From assembly GCF_000378145.1 (NCBI RefSeq), contig NZ_KB899287.1, positions 1 to 64,000 on the forward strand: a stretch of DNA of 64,000 nt. The letters run 5' to 3'. The notes below the pieces were generated by a model. It did not search any database. It was not told where the DNA came from and was given only the letters and a program-made list of their open reading frames with translations. Below, piece by piece: positions 2 through 28,360 of this stretch. The first letter of the stretch is position 1. Each line of letters opens with the position of its first letter. The DNA comes from Saccharibacillus kuerlensis DSM 22868. Lineage in GTDB: Bacteria; Bacillota; Bacilli; Paenibacillales; Paenibacillaceae. The position numbers and the translations under genes were made by a program.

Positions 2-232
2 CGAATATCGAAACGGGGCTCTTCGTACCTGCGAACGGCGCTTTATCAAGCGACCGTAGCCGGCATTTCCAAGCAGATTCACGGTCCGCGAAATTCGATT
101 CTTTTTCAATTTTATCAGCAAAAACGGGACGAAGGCAAACCGGCAAAAGTCGCGATTGTTGCAGCTTCGCATAAGCTTTTACGCATTATTTTTGGTATGT
201 GGAACTCCGGATCGGCCTTTCAAGCTCATTAA
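2..232 (+). mobile_element. IS110/IS1111-family transposase, C-terminal end (5' part outside window)
   Basis: An open frame from the left edge to TAA at 230-232 encodes 76 residues beginning RISKRGSSYLRTALYQA. This resembles the conserved C-terminal domain of IS110-family (DEDD) transposases, which typically contains a SKRGxxxLRxALYxA-type motif and the catalytic serine region. The N-terminal DEDD half is upstream of the window. These enzymes recombine DNA under guidance of an RNA encoded in the non-coding end of the element and usually lack long terminal inverted repeats, so the right end of the element cannot be fixed here. The frame is intact to its stop, so nothing shows decay. The neighbouring downstream DNA is a structured element and then an AT-rich gene island. 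Confidence 0.8.
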
Positions 233-733: not shown

Positions 734-834
734 ACACATAACGTTCCTGTATTCACGACTCGACGTATGTCGAGTGTCCGGCGTATGCCGGACCCAGGGC
801 GTATGCCCGCAGCGTGAATATTATGTTATGTGAA
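734..834. repeat. Cloverleaf-like structured repeat, copy 1 (attC-like cassette boundary)
   Basis: An outer 8-bp stem CACATAAC (735-742) / GTTATGTG (825-832) leads through an unpaired bulge to a second 8-bp stem TATTCACG (750-757) / CGTGAATA (813-820). Inside are three mini-hairpins, all with the tetraloop GTAT: ACTCGAC/GTCGAGT (758-775), GTCCGGC/GCCGGAC (776-793) and GGGC/GCCC (797-808). The element recurs at 1645-1744 with compensated substitutions, so the fold itself appears conserved. It lies 19 bases beyond the stop of the neighbouring minus-strand gene. Confidence 0.8.
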
Positions 835-852
835 GTCATTTCTTTATCTCCG

Positions 853-1614
853 CTATACTTCTTCAGTAATAAATATCGGATAGGCTAATAAATCATTAAC
901 TCTTGCTTCTTTATTGTTAAAGATGAAGCATTGCTCATTTGTAATATAACGTTTTCTATATAGGCAAGTAATCTTTTTAGTCGCCCCTCGTTTTGCTCCT
1001 AAGCCAACCAACTTATCTATCGGATGTCGTTTATCGCTACGTCCGAATTTCTCTTCTCCCGCATGCAATATGGTATTTAAAATCGGTCTTCCTTCTAAAA
1101 AGTTCACAATGGATTGGAGTGCAGAGCATCCTGAATACATATGCGAGTATTTTCCATTGTCCAACCACATTTGTGTTATATACAAAAAAGTCCCTGTGTA
1201 GTTATAGATCAAGTTGCCTTGCTGTATATCATCTGTATTAGGATCAGATATCCAAAGAGCAAAACCATCAAGGTAAGGTGTATCTATCAATGATTCTTTA
1301 GGAAAAAATATTTGAGTTGCTTTGGTTGTTTCAAGTACAAAAGCTTTTCTATTCGGGTTGAAACCATCGTGCATGTCCTTAGGCCTGCTTAAATCTAATT
1401 GTTCATTTTCTCTTAAATACTTAAGCAACAAATCGATCTTCTGAGTTTTATTCATCTCTAATTTGAAATCTTCTTCACTAATGTCTGTTCTAACTCCGGT
1501 AATACCAAACGATATTAATTTTTTCCTTCTATATTCTTTAGGAAAATATTTCTTAGGAAGTTGCTCCAAATATTCATTTAGTAATTCTTCATTAACAAAA
1601 GTATAATGTCTCAT
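853..1614 (-). CDS. Uncharacterised 253-aa protein in an attC-like cassette
   Basis: The gene starts at ATG 1614 after an AGGTGG-type ribosome binding site, only about 38 bases from the boundary repeat, so there is little room for its own promoter. The protein is soluble, with no signal peptide or membrane segment. Its N-terminus (MRHYTFVNEELLNEYLEQL) is followed by a charged helix-rich half and a C-terminal part with several aromatic beta-strand-like stretches (DGFALWISDP, YTGTFLYITQMW). I do not recognise the family. The opening Y-x-x-N/D-x-x-L-L-N-x-Y-L-x-Q is faintly like DUF6414-type proteins, which I cannot confirm. The DNA is clearly AT-rich against the surrounding chromosome, suggesting transfer. 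The gene sits alone between two copies of the structured repeat. Confidence 0.75.
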   Translation of the reverse strand: MRHYTFVNEELLNEYLEQLPKKYFPKEYRRKKLISFGITGVRTDISEEDFKLEMNKTQKIDLLLKYLRENEQLDLSRPKDMHDGFNPNRKAFVLETTKATQIFFPKESLIDTPYLDGFALWISDPNTDDIQQGNLIYNYTGTFLYITQMWLDNGKYSHMYSGCSALQSIVNFLEGRPILNTILHAGEEKFGRSDKRHPIDKLVGLGAKRGATKKITCLYRKRYITNEQCFIFNNKEARVNDLLAYPIFITEEV

Positions 1615-1644
1615 TGCTTATAATCCACCTCGTGTATATGATTT

Positions 1645-1744
1645 CACATAACGTTCCTGTATTCACGACCCGACGCATGTCGGGTGTCTGGCGTATGCCA
1701 GACCCAGGGCGTATGCCCGCAGCGTGAATATTATGTTATACGAC
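1645..1744. repeat. Cloverleaf-like structured repeat, copy 2 (attC-like cassette boundary)
   Basis: This is near-identical to the copy at 734-834. It has TATTCACG/CGTGAATA, then CCCGAC/GTCGGG (loop GCAT), TCTGGC/GCCAGA (loop GTAT) and GGGC/GCCC (loop GTAT). Relative to copy 1, CTCGAC/GTCGAG became CCCGAC/GTCGGG and TCCGGC/GCCGGA became TCTGGC/GCCAGA, so both strands of each stem changed together. The outer ends ATAAC (1648-1652) and GTTAT (1735-1739) pair for only five bases. The flanks beyond them belong to different gene modules: the left flank matches the right flank of copy 1, and the right flank matches the sequence at 4432-4449. Confidence 0.8.
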
Positions 1745-1792
1745 GGAATCTCCTTCACTGATTAGCTAGACCCTTTCTTTTTACCTAAGCTT

Positions 1793-2911
1793 TTAATCAA
1801 CAACAAACGTATCAGTTGTTGATTTTTCCTCATCGAAAAATCCTGCTACAAATTTCTCGAAATTGTTGTCTATTATTTCTACCAATTTTTTGAGTTTCAT
1901 GTTTGTAAAGTTCAAATTTTCCTTTTTCAATTCTTCAAATATTTTATTTTCTAAATCATACTTTTTAATGGCCTCGTAATAACTCTTAAAGGCAACATCG
2001 TGTACTTTTGATTCATCAAAATTCCTATAAAAAACATGAGCAATTGCACATTTTAATAACATACTTGAAACTTCTTCATTCTCTCCAAAATTCGATGAAA
2101 TTTTAAATATATATTTGAACGCGACTTCGAATCGTATATAAGGTATCAACTTATATTCCACGCTTAAAAGCAAAGTATCAAAGGCTTGAGCTAGGTAACC
2201 GAAAATAGTAAGATAAAAAACTTCCGCATCCGTAGCATCTTTTGAAATAGGTAAAATAGCTGAGGCTCTATAGGCCTCAAATCTATTTATAAGACTTAAA
2301 TCACTCTCCTCTTTTTCTGAAAAAATAATGCTTTCTGCAATCCCATCCGATAGTACATTTTTAACTTCTTCAATCGTGCTCAAATTCTTATAAGTTTCTT
2401 TATTTATGTTTTCTTTAAACATGCTGAAAAACGCTTGATCCGCTGCCTCATAAACAAACTGGTTAGTTTCATTTAATAGTCGAAAAGGCAAGATATAAAT
2501 GATCCCAAAAGCTTGCTTTATAATTTTCATATTATCTTTAAGGGTAGCAATAATTTGATTTTTCATCTTTTTCTCAAAATCCAAATTTATATTGTTGCTC
2601 CTAACCATTGTTACATACTTATATATAGGATCATCCCAAAGGTGATATTTCCCTAATGATACAAATGGAAAGTGTTCACCATCATCTATATCTAAAATTG
2701 TTGCTGATGTAAAAACATATGCACTATAAGGAGGAAATAAAAAGTGTAAAATATTTTGAAGAATTTTCTTATTACGTTCCCAAAATACTAAAATCTCATC
2801 AATTACTGCTTCTGAATCCTTCACATATATATTGTTCACTGCATTTTTCAGAACTTTATTGTATTCAAGCTGAATAGAATTCAACTCTTCTTCAAGCATG
2901 TTATTATTCAT
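1793..2911 (-). CDS. Uncharacterised protein, second gene of a coupled pair
   Basis: I chose the ATG at 2911 (MNNNMLEEEL) because the GGGAGG ribosome binding site is about 7 bases upstream. An in-frame ATG at 2917 is too close to it. The start lies inside the end of the upstream gene (8-base overlap), which suggests translational coupling and obligate co-expression. The product (372 aa) is acidic, mostly alpha-helical and has no transmembrane or signal sequence. Recognisable stretches such as FPFVSLGKYHLWDDP and FGYLAQAFDTLLLS do not place it in a family I know. AT-rich DNA and the position inside a cassette-like module mark it as accessory. A defence or toxin-immunity role is possible from context only. 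Confidence 0.75.
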   Translation of the reverse strand: MNNNMLEEELNSIQLEYNKVLKNAVNNIYVKDSEAVIDEILVFWERNKKILQNILHFLFPPYSAYVFTSATILDIDDGEHFPFVSLGKYHLWDDPIYKYVTMVRSNNINLDFEKKMKNQIIATLKDNMKIIKQAFGIIYILPFRLLNETNQFVYEAADQAFFSMFKENINKETYKNLSTIEEVKNVLSDGIAESIIFSEKEESDLSLINRFEAYRASAILPISKDATDAEVFYLTIFGYLAQAFDTLLLSVEYKLIPYIRFEVAFKYIFKISSNFGENEEVSSMLLKCAIAHVFYRNFDESKVHDVAFKSYYEAIKKYDLENKIFEELKKENLNFTNMKLKKLVEIIDNNFEKFVAGFFDEEKSTTDTFVVD

Positions 2912-4355
2912 TATCATTCCTCCCTAATGCAAGATGTGTGGGAAGTCCATATATCCCCTCCAAAACAGAGAGTGTTTTATTCATTACTCCTACACAATCA
3001 TCCCAAACACTTTTCAATTTTTGATTGTTCTCTATGTCTGGTATGCAATGATACTGGTGTGAAGGAGAGTTACATTTTACTAAAGAGCTTTCTCTGATAG
3101 CTCCCCATAACCCATGTTCAAAGGCAGAATCATAATCGTAGTAGTAATTAAAAAGATCTTGCTCGTCTACATCTTTAGCTTTTAACCGAACATTTTGTTT
3201 ATTAAAATAAGATGTGTCCATATCGATAAAATCTTTGTTTTTGTATTCGCTGACTAACATATCCATATACTCATAAGAAACATGACTCGATGGTAACTCA
3301 ACTCCTGATTGTCTATATCTTTCCACAATTAATTTGTATTGACCTATCCCATAGTATTGATACTCGGTCCAAATATCACGGTGTGAAGCTTCATGCTTGA
3401 GTAAATACTTCATCATTATATAATCCTCAATTAAAACACGAGTAATACTTCTGCCTGAAATAGTATGAAAAAGGTTATGCTCAACTAATTCTAATAATCT
3501 TTTGTACGAATAAGTTACTATCCCTAAGAGTACTAACATTTTATTATCAAGAGGATTTATTGAGGTGAGTAAGCTTGTATAGTATTCTAAAATCCTTTTT
3601 ACCTGACCCATATAAATTTTACTATCAGGCGGGCTTTCGGTAAGATCAATATAATACAGTTCGCAATCACTCATTCTACTCACTGCCTCCCAAAAATAAT
3701 CTAAATATTTAGCATCAAAATTTTCAAGTTCTAATAGTATTAACTCAGTTGCACGAACACGTGGACGAATGCTTCTCATTTCTTCATCTTCATGAGATAA
3801 GTGGGGATATTCAAGAATCGCTTCAATCGACGCAGAAGGCATTTTTAATTTCCCAGATATTAAATGAAAGTAAAGAACCATAAAACGAATATCAGTAGAA
3901 AAGTTTGTCTGATGATCACTTGCTTCTTCCATTAAAGAATTAATACATTTAACCCTCTCTTCAACTGATGCAGAAGACTGAAATTCACTTGAAAATATTG
4001 GATATTCTGTATAAGTAAAAATCGCAGTAAGTGGAGCTAACACTTGCTGATCTATGATCGTTAACATATCTTCAAATAAATATTTTTGAATGCTTATATC
4101 TAGATTCAATATCATTGAAAATCTAGGAGCTTCTAATTCAGGTGCTTTTTCTCTCAATATTTTGAAAATAGCATTGCATTTTTGCAAGCCCTCCCTTCTA
4201 CCATAAAATCTTATAATTAGACCTATCCAAAAGTATTCTGGCAATCTGCCATGAAACCAAGAGTTCTCTCTGGTAACTTCGCTCAACAACTCATTCCATG
4301 GCGTAATGAATTTCCCTTTTCTAAAAGTGTGATCGGAAAGTTTGCTTTTCTCCAT
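2904..4355 (-). CDS. Uncharacterised 483-aa protein, possibly DUF5677-like, first gene of the pair
   Basis: A clear AGGAGG lies 6 bases before the ATG at 4355. The protein is soluble and helical. Its C-terminal half (about residues 280-480) has features I associate with DUF5677-type proteins: a basic helix followed by an E/D-rich one (GRSITRVLIEDYIMMKYLLKH), then a YYYDYDSAFEHGLWGAI stretch and a CNSPSHQYHCIPD motif. This assignment is from memory of family motifs and is tentative. The function of that family is unknown. It is the promoter-proximal gene of a two-gene unit with the ORF ending at 1793. About 90 bases of AT-rich leader separate it from the boundary sequence at 4432-4449, enough for a promoter. 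The base composition is unlike the surrounding chromosome. Confidence 0.7.
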   Translation of the reverse strand: MEKSKLSDHTFRKGKFITPWNELLSEVTRENSWFHGRLPEYFWIGLIIRFYGRREGLQKCNAIFKILREKAPELEAPRFSMILNLDISIQKYLFEDMLTIIDQQVLAPLTAIFTYTEYPIFSSEFQSSASVEERVKCINSLMEEASDHQTNFSTDIRFMVLYFHLISGKLKMPSASIEAILEYPHLSHEDEEMRSIRPRVRATELILLELENFDAKYLDYFWEAVSRMSDCELYYIDLTESPPDSKIYMGQVKRILEYYTSLLTSINPLDNKMLVLLGIVTYSYKRLLELVEHNLFHTISGRSITRVLIEDYIMMKYLLKHEASHRDIWTEYQYYGIGQYKLIVERYRQSGVELPSSHVSYEYMDMLVSEYKNKDFIDMDTSYFNKQNVRLKAKDVDEQDLFNYYYDYDSAFEHGLWGAIRESSLVKCNSPSHQYHCIPDIENNQKLKSVWDDCVGVMNKTLSVLEGIYGLPTHLALGRNDNE

Positions 4356-4431
4356 ATGTATCCTCCTAATTCAAATTTTAAAATTGAATTTTGTAGTTTT
4401 TTATTAGTAGTTAAATGATTTCTCTATAAGA

Positions 4432-4540
4432 TTCTGTCGTATAACGTCTTATTTACGAACTTCGTAAATCCCTTTCATCCTACGATATTCCCGAACTTCG
4501 TAAAATCTACTTTTCGCTGGGTATTCCCGAACCTTCTTTC
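4432..4540. repeat. Divergent right-hand boundary of the cassette-like array
   Basis: The stretch AGATTCTGTCGTATAAC (to 4449) is the inverse of the right flank of copy 2 (GTTATACGACGGAATCT, 1735 onward) with one mismatch, so the two-gene module has its own inverted-repeat ends. It continues as ATAACGTCTTATTTACGA, resembling ATAACGTTCCTGTATTCACGA of copies 1 and 2. The interior is different: a hairpin ATTTACGAA/TTCGTAAAT, a second CCCGAACTTCGTAAAA stretch and two TATTCCCGAAC repeats. No closing GTTAT arm was found, so this looks like a degenerate or unrelated terminal site. The rest of the 4356-4746 gap holds only the terminator below. Confidence 0.5.
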
Positions 4541-4600
4541 TTCGCCTGCTCACTCAGTATATCAGTTGATGGAAAATTTGGAAATCCATATTGAACGACA

Positions 4601-4637
4601 AAAAGTCCGCCTCTCGTCATTCGAGAAAGCGGACTTC
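4601..4637 (-). terminator. Rho-independent terminator of the TPR-GGDEF gene
   Basis: AAGTCCGC (4603-4610) pairs with GCGGACTT (4629-4636). On the minus strand the stem is followed by a short T-run. It lies about 110 bases past the stop codon of the diguanylate cyclase gene. Confidence 0.75.
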
Positions 4638-4746: not shown

Positions 4747-6384
4747 CTATTCGTAACAGTCGCTGAATACAACCCGATCTTTGCCGCTCCGTTTAGCCAT
4801 GTACAGTCGACGGTCAGCAATTTCGAGCAGTTCCGTAGAGCCGATCGATCCGCCGAAAATGGTGTGTACACCGATACTGGCCGTTACAGGCAGAGTACCG
4901 GTAATCGGACTCCAATCTGCGCCCCGGATCGCTCGGCACATCCGTTCAGCTAGCTCGACTCCCTGCTTCTCATCGGTACGTGGGAATATCGCGATAAACT
5001 CTTCTCCGCCCATCCGTCCAACGACAGCCGGCTCGGCTGCAGCTACCGACAAGATCTTGGCTACGTTGATCAATACCATATCTCCAACAGCGTGAGATAA
5101 CGTATCGTTCACTCGTTTGAAGGAATCCAGATCGATAATTGCTAATGTGATCGGATCGCCGGATGTGCGCGCTTGGATCAACAGCTGTTCCAAATATTCG
5201 TCGATAAACCGGCGGTTGCGCAGACCGGTAAGCGGATCGCGCAGCGCCATTTCACGGAAAAGTTCGCTGCTCTTGCGCGCTTCTTCCGCCTCGAATACTG
5301 CCTGGAAGATGCGCGCTTTTACTTCTCGTTCGGCAGAACGCAGTGCTTCCGAATCAGCATGGTAACGTCTATACTCTTCGTACGCTTCCTTATAGAGATT
5401 CGCCGCTGCATACAATTCGGCTTGACGCAGTCTTACCTGTACGGACAACCTTGACAATCCGTGCGCTTCACATAGATGGCGAGCTTCGTCAAGCATTGCC
5501 TGAGCTTCGTTCAGCTTGCCTTGAATAAGCTGCGCTTGAGAGACAGTCAGCATGCACTCCGGCAGAGACGCCAACTCGCTTAAACGCCGCTCGGAAGGAT
5601 CCGTAATAACCGGCAGCAGTGTTTTCTCGGCTTCCTCAGGCCGCCCCAACAAAATTTCCCCTTTGGCGATCGTATCAAGCTGCATCGCAATCAGCGGAAA
5701 TCCATGACGCTCGGACAATCTGCGGATCTGCTCAATTAACTCTGCCGCTTTTTCAAGATCTCCCAGGTCGTAATAAGTGAACGCCATATTGTTAAAAGCA
5801 AACAGCTCAAACTGTACGTCCCCCGTTGCTCTGGCAATCTCCAGCACCTCGTCAAATCGCTCTTTCGCATCTTCGTGTGATCCGGCCTCATCAAGCGACA
5901 AAGCCAGCATCATAAGATGATCTGCACGAGTCGCCGGGGCCACGTCGGACGGAAGATGTTTGAGTCCGCGCAGGGCATTCTCGAGCGCACTGTCTTGATC
6001 ACCCAACCGACGGAAAAAGCCGCCAAGCAGCCGGTGGCTGCGCGCCAAAATATATTCGTGTTCATTCTTCGCCGCCCAAGCATTGATTTCGCGAATCAAA
6101 CGACCGCTCTCGGCAACTTGTCCTTGACGCCCCAGCACATCGGCATGGATAAGCCGAGCGCGCTGCGTTAGATCTTCGCGTCCAATTCGGGAAGCTGCAC
6201 GGAGTGCCTGCTGAACCGGTACAATTGCAGAATTGATATCGCGATAAGGCTGTATTTCCAACAAATCGAGGACACGCCCAAAATCTTCCGGTGTACAGCC
6301 GTCCGATTCGAATTTGCGGGCGAGTAGGTTCCAGTCCGGCTGCTTGAACTGTGTCCCTTTATGGTACAAATGTTGATCCGGCAT
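4747..6384 (-). CDS. TPR-repeat diguanylate cyclase (GGDEF domain)
   Basis: The 545-aa cytosolic protein is predicted to make cyclic di-GMP from two GTP. Residues about 40-370 form helical tetratricopeptide-like repeats (patterns such as ARSHRLLGGFFRRLGDQDSALENALRGL and AFNNMAFTYYDLGDLEKAAEL). They are followed by a short coiled coil and a GGDEF domain from about 385 (ALRDPLTGLRNRRF) with a canonical GGEEF active site at about 459. The RxxD product-inhibition site normally nine residues before GGEEF is absent, so feedback inhibition through it is unlikely. There is no membrane segment, so the TPR part presumably senses a protein or peptide partner. The start has GGGGGAG five bases upstream. 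It is monocistronic, with its own promoter and terminator. Confidence 0.9.
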   Translation of the reverse strand: MPDQHLYHKGTQFKQPDWNLLARKFESDGCTPEDFGRVLDLLEIQPYRDINSAIVPVQQALRAASRIGREDLTQRARLIHADVLGRQGQVAESGRLIREINAWAAKNEHEYILARSHRLLGGFFRRLGDQDSALENALRGLKHLPSDVAPATRADHLMMLALSLDEAGSHEDAKERFDEVLEIARATGDVQFELFAFNNMAFTYYDLGDLEKAAELIEQIRRLSERHGFPLIAMQLDTIAKGEILLGRPEEAEKTLLPVITDPSERRLSELASLPECMLTVSQAQLIQGKLNEAQAMLDEARHLCEAHGLSRLSVQVRLRQAELYAAANLYKEAYEEYRRYHADSEALRSAEREVKARIFQAVFEAEEARKSSELFREMALRDPLTGLRNRRFIDEYLEQLLIQARTSGDPITLAIIDLDSFKRVNDTLSHAVGDMVLINVAKILSVAAAEPAVVGRMGGEEFIAIFPRTDEKQGVELAERMCRAIRGADWSPITGTLPVTASIGVHTIFGGSIGSTELLEIADRRLYMAKRSGKDRVVFSDCYE

Positions 6385-6462
6385 GGTGTCTCCCCCTTAT
6401 AACAACAGCAATTCCGTCCACTCTGCCATATTTTTCCTGAGGCAAGTGTTCAAGTACATTTT

Positions 6463-6491
6463 ATATTAAAGTGATACAGCGTTAAAATCAA
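6463..6491 (-). promoter_or_regulatory. Sigma-A-type promoter of the TPR-GGDEF gene
   Basis: Read on the minus strand, TTGATT (6486-6491) and TAATAT (6463-6468) are separated by 17 bases, close to the TTGACA-17-TATAAT consensus. The start codon lies about 80 bases downstream. Confidence 0.6.
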
Positions 6492-6530
6492 CATTTTTAT
6501 GCATAATTTGGACTAGTCTATAGGAAAAAA

Positions 6531-6565
6531 GACTGAATGGTTCATTTTCCATTTCAGTCTTTTTG
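6531..6565 (-). terminator. Bidirectional terminator after the alarmone synthetase gene
   Basis: GACTGAATGG pairs with CCATTTCAGTC (one-base bulge), flanked by an A-run on the left and a T-run on the right. It begins a few bases beyond the ywaC-like stop codon. Confidence 0.8.
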
Positions 6566-6571
6566 CGGATA

Positions 6572-7336
6572 TTATCTTTGCCCCAATATGTCTAACAATG
6601 TGCCAGGAATTCGGAATTGCTGTCCATTGATATGAATCGTCTTGAGCATTTCGCTTTCTTCTGTATCATGTGCATCCTTAATTGCCTGCACTTCATGCTG
6701 AAGCCGTTCCATTTGCAGATCGAGCGAAGCGGCAGAATCAGCTGCAGCTTTTAATTCAGTCAGCAGCTCTTCCGGTACGTCTTTATTGTATTTATAAAAG
6801 ATTTTGTGCTCCAAGCTGGCCCAGAAATCCATCGCAATCGTACGGATCTGAAGTTCTACGCAGACCTGTTCCGTCCGATCGGATAGGAAGACCGGTACTT
6901 CGATCAATAAATGAAGGCTGCGGTAACCGTTGGACTTGGGTGAGGTAATATAATCTTTGATCTCCAGCACCTTCAGATCGTTTTGTTTCTGAAGCATCTC
7001 GCTGACTTTGTAAATATCGGAAATAAACGAACAAGTGATGCGCAGACCCGCAATATCTCGGATATGGTGTTTGATCGATCCCAATGAAATCTCATGCTGT
7101 TTGCGAAGCAGCTTGTTGACGATACTTTCCGGCGACTTTAGTCGGGACTTCGTATGCTCAATTGGGCTGTAATCGTGCAGCGTCTGAAACTCCTGTTTCA
7201 GAATATCAATCTTTGTCTCCATTTCATCCAATGCAAACTTGTAAGTCATCATAAAACGCGTGACCTCATCGTGAAATGACTTAAGCTGCGCCATCGGAAC
7301 ATTTTTGTTACTCAAATCCAAAGTATTATTTTCCAT
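6572..7336 (-). CDS. ywaC: Small alarmone synthetase, YwaC/RelP type (GTP pyrophosphokinase)
   Basis: The product transfers pyrophosphate from ATP to GDP/GTP to make (p)ppGpp. It consists of a single RelA/SpoT synthetase domain without hydrolase or regulatory domains. Characteristic segments are NPIEHTKSR-like YSPIEHTKSR near residue 58, HHIRDIAGLRI, YITSPKSNGYRSLHL and VELQIRTIAMDFWASLEHKI. Together they resemble Bacillus YwaC more than YjbM. About 254 aa, some 40 longer than YwaC, with a helical C-terminal tail (ALDLQMERL-type coiled coil). The ATG at 7336 (MENNTLDL) is preferred, with GGAAG eight bases upstream. An in-frame start at 7378 would add 14 residues that look non-coding. YwaC homologues are stress-induced, often by cell-envelope sigma factors. 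Confidence 0.88.
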   Translation of the reverse strand: MENNTLDLSNKNVPMAQLKSFHDEVTRFMMTYKFALDEMETKIDILKQEFQTLHDYSPIEHTKSRLKSPESIVNKLLRKQHEISLGSIKHHIRDIAGLRITCSFISDIYKVSEMLQKQNDLKVLEIKDYITSPKSNGYRSLHLLIEVPVFLSDRTEQVCVELQIRTIAMDFWASLEHKIFYKYNKDVPEELLTELKAAADSAASLDLQMERLQHEVQAIKDAHDTEESEMLKTIHINGQQFRIPGTLLDILGQR

Positions 7337-7525
7337 GACATTCACTTCCGTTCCTCTCTGCAGGGGACAGCAGGACAAGCGTCCGGTTGCCCATCAAATA
7401 TTCGTGAAGCCGAAGTATCCACGCAAAGGACGAGTCGGTTCCGGCAGGGACATACTCCGAGACCTTCGATTCATCATCGCCCGAATTTCCGAATCACATT
7501 CGGTTGACGCACCCGCGAATTTGCG

Positions 7526-7554
7526 TATATACCTTGAATATCGGTTATTTCAAG
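7526..7554 (-). promoter_or_regulatory. Candidate promoter with overlapping palindrome upstream of ywaC
   Basis: On the minus strand, TTGAAA (7548-7553) and TATATA (7526-7531) are spaced by 16 bases. They overlap the inverted repeat CTTGAA-N10-TTCAAG (7533-7554), which could be an operator. The implied leader to the ywaC start is long (about 190 bases), so the assignment is tentative. Confidence 0.35.
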
Positions 7555-7599
7555 TATAGTAATTACCCCGAAGTTTTACAAACTGCCAAGCAGGACAAT

Positions 7600-28047: not shown

Positions 28048-28360
28048 ATAAAAAAGACCCGGCCTGCTGCATTTCTGCAGGGACGAGTCTTAATCGCGGT
28101 ACCACCCTTAATTGGAAAGGCGCTTGCATTTGGAGCATCTGCGCGTTTCCCACTTTGAGGTCCGATAACGTGGACAATTCCGTCCCGTTCCTTCCGCTCT
28201 CGCGGTTTCGGAAACGGGAAGCTCCGGGACGTAATTCATATTCATTCGTCTACCGACTCGCACCAACCGCCGGCTCTCTGAAAGTACAGATCTGAATACT
28301 ACTGGATTCCCTTCAATGCTTATTATGGCGCTCCGCAGGCCGGGCGCTTGCTGATTCCTT
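28048..28360 (-). promoter_or_regulatory. T-box riboswitch, tyrosine-specific, controlling tyrS
   Basis: On the minus strand the T-box core AAGGGTGGTACCGCG lies at about 28110-28096. It is followed by a terminator stem (AAGACTCG ... CGGGTCTT, T-run to about 28048) that competes with the antiterminator. Upstream is the Stem I apical signature AGAGAGCCGG...GGTTGGTGCGA (about 28283-28250), and the candidate specifier TAC (28233-28231), a tyrosine codon, in GAATTACGTC. Uncharged tRNA-Tyr should pair with the specifier and the T-box to allow read-through into tyrS. The exact transcription start was not determined. Confidence 0.92.

Follow-up and report, generated by a model that had tools for sequence, protein, structure and literature searches.

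Integrons built around the integrase IntI, among them the sedentary chromosomal integrons of Vibrio and Xanthomonas, combine an integrase gene, an attI site and an array of cassettes, most of which consist of one open reading frame (ORF) and its own recombination site. The R'' and R' arms of these sites pair within the cassette, crossover takes place at G^TT, cassettes carry defence genes and genes of unknown function, and some arrays stand without an integrase gene. XerA, XerC and XerD are recombinases whose role is dimer resolution at dif, a short duplex site. Complete integrons are extremely rare in Firmicutes according to the available sections of the IntegronFinder 2.0 report, which mention a few attC clusters (CALIN) in different Firmicutes genera, one complete Firmicutes integron, in Limnochorda pilosa, and no Paenibacillales system (PMC9024848). 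A title search of the open-access literature, preprints excluded, revealed no report of a Paenibacillus integron; one may be in print elsewhere. Here we describe a locus at the left end of the first 64,000 nucleotides (hereafter the window) of contig NZ_KB899287.1 (C11) in the 4.7-Mb draft genome of Saccharibacillus kuerlensis DSM 22868. Very probably, this is the start of a cassette array belonging to an integron-like chromosomal system, with three-hairpin cassette sites and a Xer-like integrase acting in trans.

The system shares with IntI integrons all the features listed above. It differs from them in an integrase that lacks the catalytic-domain insertion and carries an N-terminal extension of about 100 residues, in several dispersed attI loci per genome, in outer arms of about 17 nt with a fixed mismatch of 1-2 nt, and in a three-hairpin core. 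The closest sequence and structure matches of its recombinase are of the XerA/XerC/XerD kind (NF040815; PDB 4a8e and 5hxy), but unlike those enzymes it is linked to a gene-capture array. The system works like an integron and is a variant of the integron kind, without one feature that defines the IntI family.

Cassette sites, private ends and exchange of cassettes

In minus-strand order, the elements at the left end of the window are a GGDEF gene, a leader, an attI-like site, cassette B, cassette A and a further cassette, of which only the start is present on this contig. Taken as ACG^TT, by analogy with the cassette comparisons below, the cassette borders fall at 4445/4444, 1652/1651 and 742/741. 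Cassette A (742..1651) consists of one ORF of 253 aa (ORF A, 853..1614) and, at its 3' end, attC-like site 1, a three-hairpin cloverleaf (742..834, with an outer arm extending to about 842); ORF A had no match in Pfam (E<=0.001) or PADLOC (E<=0.1). Cassette B (1652..4444) is, judging by its ORFs and PADLOC, a two-gene defence cassette with DitA (2904..4355, containing DUF5677; PDLC03826, E 3e-202), DitB (1793..2917; PDLC03827, E 3e-109) and, at its 3' end, attC-like site 2 (1652..1752 including the outer arm), delimited by sequence, alignment and fold. None of the three genes had a tblastn match (E<=1e-6) in the other array stretches examined.

A preliminary description of the window had pointed to two repeats with a common three-hairpin architecture (734-834 and 1645-1744), and this was borne out. 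The repeats align with 94% identity across 98 positions, their plus strands are predicted to adopt the same three-hairpin structure as single-stranded DNA, and the fold energies lie 8.0 and 5.5 standard deviations below those of dinucleotide shuffles, with none of 200 shuffles as low. The architecture comprises a long outer arm, an 8-bp inner stem (CGTGAATA/TATTCACG) and three hairpins. Covariation was assessed in an ungapped alignment of 70 sites, namely the two of the window and 68 of 106 non-redundant 117-nt sites derived from 189. In this alignment 94.9% of cells were paired and 14 of 26 pairs showed two-sided change. The covariation score was 0.192 vs 0.112 in shuffles (0/500 as high) and at most 0.079 when the structure was slid, a comparison in which the tested structure has an advantage, having been drawn from the consensus. 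RNAalifold unaided recovered the outer stem and the third hairpin, with the first hairpin shifted and the second shortened. The covariation speaks for conservation of the fold and not for its use as the substrate of recombination, which would most likely be the folded single strand. In the 70 sites the 8-bp inner stem showed no extra-helical base; asymmetric loops and the fixed arm mismatch described below could stand in place of the unpaired central spacer, extra-helical bases (EHB) and variable terminal structure (VTS) in the choice of the bottom strand. Rfam at gathering thresholds gave no match at the window sites, and a search for the site in plasmids and phages gave none at E<=1e-5.

The site was matched 21 times in the S. 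kuerlensis genome, in groups of the same orientation, the longest of them on contig C1. Several others sit at contig ends, as would be the case if repeats had broken the assembly. BLAST matches to the site were retained for comparison if they covered at least 86 aligned positions. Among relatives it was matched in 25 of 59 genomes, including 13 of 15 within the genus. A sequence profile located 226 sites in 35 stretches from 14 genomes (including Paenibacillus sp. NFR01); they delimit 184 cassettes, and two of them are reversed. A single stretch can contain as many as 31 sites.

The preliminary description had also claimed private inverted ends for the two modules. Such ends are present in both, each with one mismatch at arm position 11 (TTATGTGAAxTCAT in module A, GTTATACGACxGAATCT in module B), although the right end of module B lies at 4445 and not at 4449, and what stands there is an attI-like site, not a third cloverleaf. 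The rule proved general in 107 consecutive site pairs from 125 sites of seven genomes, all in one orientation, comprising near-full-length profile matches away from sequence ends. The first 17 nt of a cassette are complementary to the arm that precedes its own site: the match is 81-98% at positions 1-9, 76-85% at 12-16 and 53% at 17, with a fixed mismatch at positions 10-11 (31% and 8%). At the variable positions, 8/8 were paired in 54/107 within-cassette pairs, vs 0/125 same-site pairs and 0.8% of random pairs, both of which match only at conserved positions, i.e. at background. This pairing of a cassette's two ends is the integron rule. In energy terms, which restate the arm pairing, the site is more stable in the excised circle than in the array for 141 of 169 cassettes (3 equal), with a mean on the gene strand of -25.4 vs -20.5 kcal/mol.

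That the modules are mobile minus-strand cassettes with attC-like sites had been proposed from the window alone, and the comparison of cassettes supports it, as do the long runs of sites and the integrase-attI-array module described below. Restricted to bodies more than 75% identical over 80% of their length, the comparison yielded 72 homologous pairs, 70 of which have 300-nt flanks no more than 51% identical on both sides; these include bodies 98-99% identical between genomes of different species. The 72 pairs are not independent, because many fall in a few cassette families. Cassette order differs between species. In two pairs of near-identical duplicates, the members of each pair sharing a genome, the copies diverge inside GGAACGTTA at either end, and the site that belongs to the cassette is on the stop side. 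On the sequence comparisons, the cassette unit is [TT - gene - stop - site - ACG], with the polarity of integron cassettes.

Most cassettes hold a single ORF in one orientation, as in integrons, cassette B of the window with its two ORFs being exceptional. The longest ORF lies on the gene strand in 147 of 167 cassettes (3 equal), with a median gap of 42 nt between stop and site. Content was examined in 112 cassette ORFs (110 of 120 non-redundant ORFs of at least 80 aa plus DitA and DitB, so that the three of the window are included), which match 67 Pfam families (E<=1e-4) and 224 PADLOC models (E<=1e-5); PADLOC models overlap, and the latter figure is not a count of defence cassettes. Among the matches listed (25 of the 67 and 25 of the 224) are GNAT, NUDIX, APH, HEPN, AbiTii, CdiI immunity, PD-T4-6 and Old-like.

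The attI-like site and the integrase

In the attI-like site of the window (4445..4533, minus strand; insertion point 4445/4444), a repeat of the type GTTCGxGAATA occurs three times in direct orientation, and its last copy ends TTCGTAAATAAGACG^TT. The best examples of such sites end TTCGTrAATAAGACG^TT. The cassette site, ending CGTGAATACAGGAACG^TT, resembles the attI-like site at GTGAATA, and ACGTTA is common to both. Sequence breaks resolve the crossover to ACGTTA, in agreement with this shared motif; the exact cut is probably ACG^TT, by analogy with integrons and from the same shared letters. In the stretches examined, 23 of 25 attI ends have cassette sites solely downstream and on the same strand. 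One of the two exceptions lies near a contig end without a site in the stretch, and the other has two opposite sites in its stretch.

An integrase was matched (E<=1e-40; three partial genes) in 11 stretches; in every one it shares the strand of attI and is separated by 67-133 nt from the cut, which is downstream of it. The remaining 14 of the 25 attI ends, the window's included, have no integrase gene in the stretch examined. A leader resembling the integrase upstream region is retained in two such arrays, in the window (4544..4604, minus strand, limits approximate; 45/66 identical to the upstream stretch of the contig C6 integrase) and on contig C1, with scores of 40 and 64 vs at most 29 in 200 random stretches. 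We read these leaders as belonging to integrase-less derivatives that kept the promoter region, and the leader is a possible cassette promoter of the Pc type.

The absence of an integrase from the window had been noted in the preliminary description, which suggested a search for a recombinase near an array. The gene is located elsewhere in the same genome: on contig C6, the gene for a tyrosine recombinase of 381 aa is followed directly by an attI-like site and three cassette sites. The genome thus contains the integrase-attI-array module of integrons, whereas the array of the window has attI alone. Four further Phage_integrase matches were found in the genome. The residues R, K, H, R, H and Y, which we take to be those of the active site, are invariant in 17 aligned integrases. 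NF040815 (Xer) scores 224.9 bits, above its curated cut-off of 220. PDB 4a8e is the best sequence match, and 4a8e and 5hxy head the structural comparison, in which the N-terminal 100 residues were barely tested; around the catalytic tyrosine the predicted local distance difference test score (pLDDT) is below 50.

We propose that this Xer-like recombinase, encoded beside another attI-like site and array, would cut ACG^TT. It would recognise the attI-like site by the direct repeats there, and a cassette site most likely in the form of one folded strand. In the excised circle the cassette's own ends would join, completing the 17-nt outer arm with its fixed mismatch of 1-2 nt. A cassette inserted at attI would become the first of its array and read away from attI. 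Several attI/array loci are probably served in trans by a single integrase, and the system may be active today.

The alternative that survives best, an improbable one in our estimate, is a true IntI integron in a Gram-positive host, with ordinary attC sites whose variable terminal structure branches. The two are indeed alike in layout, in polarity, in G^TT and in their paired R arms. TIGR02249, the IntI model, scores 205 bits with the whole integrase, a value below its cut-off of 265. In the tree, the Paenibacillales integrases group together, with the Peptococcaceae row L123 among them, and IntI forms a separate group; a joint clade of the two, with the IntI-like row L171 included, was not rejected (approximately unbiased test, p-AU 0.58). 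The three hairpins could be seen as a branched VTS (reviewed in PMC8946536). Against this stand the missing insertion of about 40 residues, the outer arms of about 17 nt with a fixed mismatch, and the inner stem without an EHB. The distance from the Lys motif to HxLRH is 59-61 in the 16 Paenibacillales integrases (of 18) for which both motifs could be located, compared with 100 in IntI1, 99 in the IntI of a Shewanella phage and 100-101 in five further proteins, the last being classed as IntI-like by that length itself. As the insertion is absent (59-61 vs 99-101 residues), we do not file the system as an IntI integron. The integrase gene also points the same way as the cassettes, a weak argument, since some known integrons have the same arrangement.

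An IntI gene elsewhere in the S. kuerlensis genome was considered and rejected: a search with TIGR02249 was negative at E<=1e-40, although it scores pieces apart, addresses full-length IntI only and misses even the present integrase. Full-length IntI, above the TIGR02249 cut-off, was found in one of 249 Bacillota genomes, which is not that of S. kuerlensis.

Distribution within and beyond the order

A covariance-model scan, as recommended in the preliminary description, covered 246 genomes of the order and placed sites in 135 (E<=0.001, roughly calibrated); by hand count, about 104 of these have three or more sites and about 31 have one or two. The integrase was matched at E<=1e-60 in 73 of the 246. 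Both were present in 71 genomes, sites only in 64, the integrase only in two (G044 and G202) and neither in 109. In a class-wide set of 299 genomes the integrase was matched in 16 at E<=1e-65, four of them outside the order.

Among 14 integrase loci from other genera and families, nine carry model sites on the integrase strand. Of the other five, L200, L206, L209 and L211 have less than 600 nt of contig past the integrase, and L210 (G044) has 9 kb. Sites in these other genera and families are longer (about 120-240 nt); the aligned ones keep the common outer stem and ACG^TT, and the folds of the L208 and L202 sites show a multi-branch core. Beyond the order, 87 loci around homologous recombinases were examined, 80 genomic and 7 from viral contigs, the latter encoding distant recombinases of 34-40% identity. 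Three or more spaced repeats were found at 10 of the 87, among which L171 and L174 are IntI-like and L125 has repeats unlike cassette sites. Cassette-like arrays lie downstream of XerA-like recombinases in Bacteroidota (L117, L126, L116 and L139). Flavobacterium enshiense (L126) has eight cassettes with private ends (10.0 of 15 vs 5.9) and the mismatch at the same place, and Seonamhaeicola (L116) has four (9.0 vs 5.7). Rufibacter (L117) has 12 site-like repeats, with an end test on just three sites (7.5 vs 6.3); in Algibacter (L139) the test covered just four sites (7.0 vs 6.2), and in G056 just one. By eye, the Bacteroidota sites look like simpler hairpins, with weak consensus folds.

These arrays raise the possibility of a second great integron lineage in Bacillota and Bacteroidota, with XerA-like integrases that lack the IntI insertion and a different mode of recognising the folded site, through a long outer arm with a fixed mismatch and, in Paenibacillales, a branched core. 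Single-strand capture would then be independent of the insertion and may predate it. We are evenly divided on whether this is the case.

Several observations weigh against an integron-like system. The two strands of the site fold almost equally (about 1 kcal/mol apart in the array form), so that energies do not fix the choice of strand, and 17 of 167 cassettes have a longer ORF on the opposite strand. Attachment sites of the attI type were sought only in stretches chosen for arrays or an integrase, kinship among genomes inflates the counts of cassette pairs, and the Fisher test on co-occurrence treats genomes as independent and ignores phylogeny. Besides the 64 genomes with sites and no detected integrase, G002 has arrays with no integrase match at 1e-40, G005 has two model matches and no integrase, and G044 has an integrase gene with four in-frame TAG codons and no sites found. 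Finally, the site cores of homologous cassettes sometimes diverge beyond their bodies (body 99.2%, site 0.76), often by paired hairpin changes or the loss of one hairpin. Sites are therefore not always transferred unchanged. A cassette in G015 (L054, 11886-13133) and one in G014 (L056, reversed, 6336-7583) have bodies 98% identical, and two of their site hairpins differ by paired changes, as if hairpins were altered or swapped more quickly than genes.

Some of these points would suit a dispersed structured repeat, REP-like (repetitive extragenic palindromic) or an RNA element, that punctuates gene clusters and is spread by homologous recombination: the strong fold on both strands, the apparent exchange of site cores between copies, the 64 genomes and the lack of an Rfam match. 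We nevertheless regard this explanation as barely credible, given the private complementary ends, the attI-like site at one end only, the integrase linkage and the constant orientation of the sites (0/125 and 2/226 opposite). The private ends and the attI-array polarity contradict it, and a plain repeat or RNA element was rejected on those ends and on the missing Rfam match. Single scattered copies with modules that never vary, which the preliminary description had named as fatal to the cassette interpretation, are not what the order presents, yet the genomes without an integrase and those with one or two sites should be kept in mind.

IS110-family elements and the genomic setting

At the very left end of the window (2..232, plus strand) lies the C-terminal end of a transposase recognised from its sequence and presumably of the IS110 family. 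A relative of it sits inside an attC-like site elsewhere, and such elements occur at or in further arrays (L054:16209-17456 and L026:1-325). An IS110-type end abuts one fixed position in seven sites of four genomes, and a shorter piece does so at an eighth. The element appears to parasitise the cassette sites; with its end at a fixed site position, one would expect a guide RNA that matches the site. In known integrons, IS1111-attC elements, which likewise have a DEDD transposase, insert in the same way at one end of cassette sites (PMC11187229); the element described here differs in targeting the cloverleaf site of a Gram-positive system. That it is an IS110-family element, and not a tyrosine recombinase, that moves the cassettes could be argued from this fixed position, but is next to impossible in our view, since the end lies at the inner stem, away from the cassette border, an exact-motif scan of the stretches with the 226 sites finds it at these sites only, and the IS1111-attC elements treat known integrons the same.

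Beyond the leader lies a chromosomal GGDEF gene (6384-4747, minus strand), matched in 16 of 16 genomes of the genus, several of the matches being weak. GGDEF and RelA/SpoT-type genes (window 4747-7378) stand a few kb from arrays in three relatives as well (G006, G013 and G015; 10 array stretches tested), which suggests that this neighbourhood is an old chromosomal integron location. A search for the GGDEF flank in plasmids led nowhere. Just beyond cassette A, at 397-669, a 47-bp repeat (CGCCGGGCGTGCTTCG...) is present in six tandem copies. A T-box leader (Rfam RF00230, 122 bits) was found at 28076-28325 on the minus strand. Elsewhere in the genome, both ends of contig C32 (38.9 kb) and the start of C6 (L024, L025 and L023) seemingly lie in the same cassette; C32 may be circular or flanked by a duplicated cassette.

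A Gram-positive system of cassette exchange with defence genes among its cassettes may escape searches based on IntI. Furthermore, it can serve as a natural experiment for asking why the insertion is needed by IntI, how a branched folded site can be recognised, and whether single-strand recombination arose once or twice.

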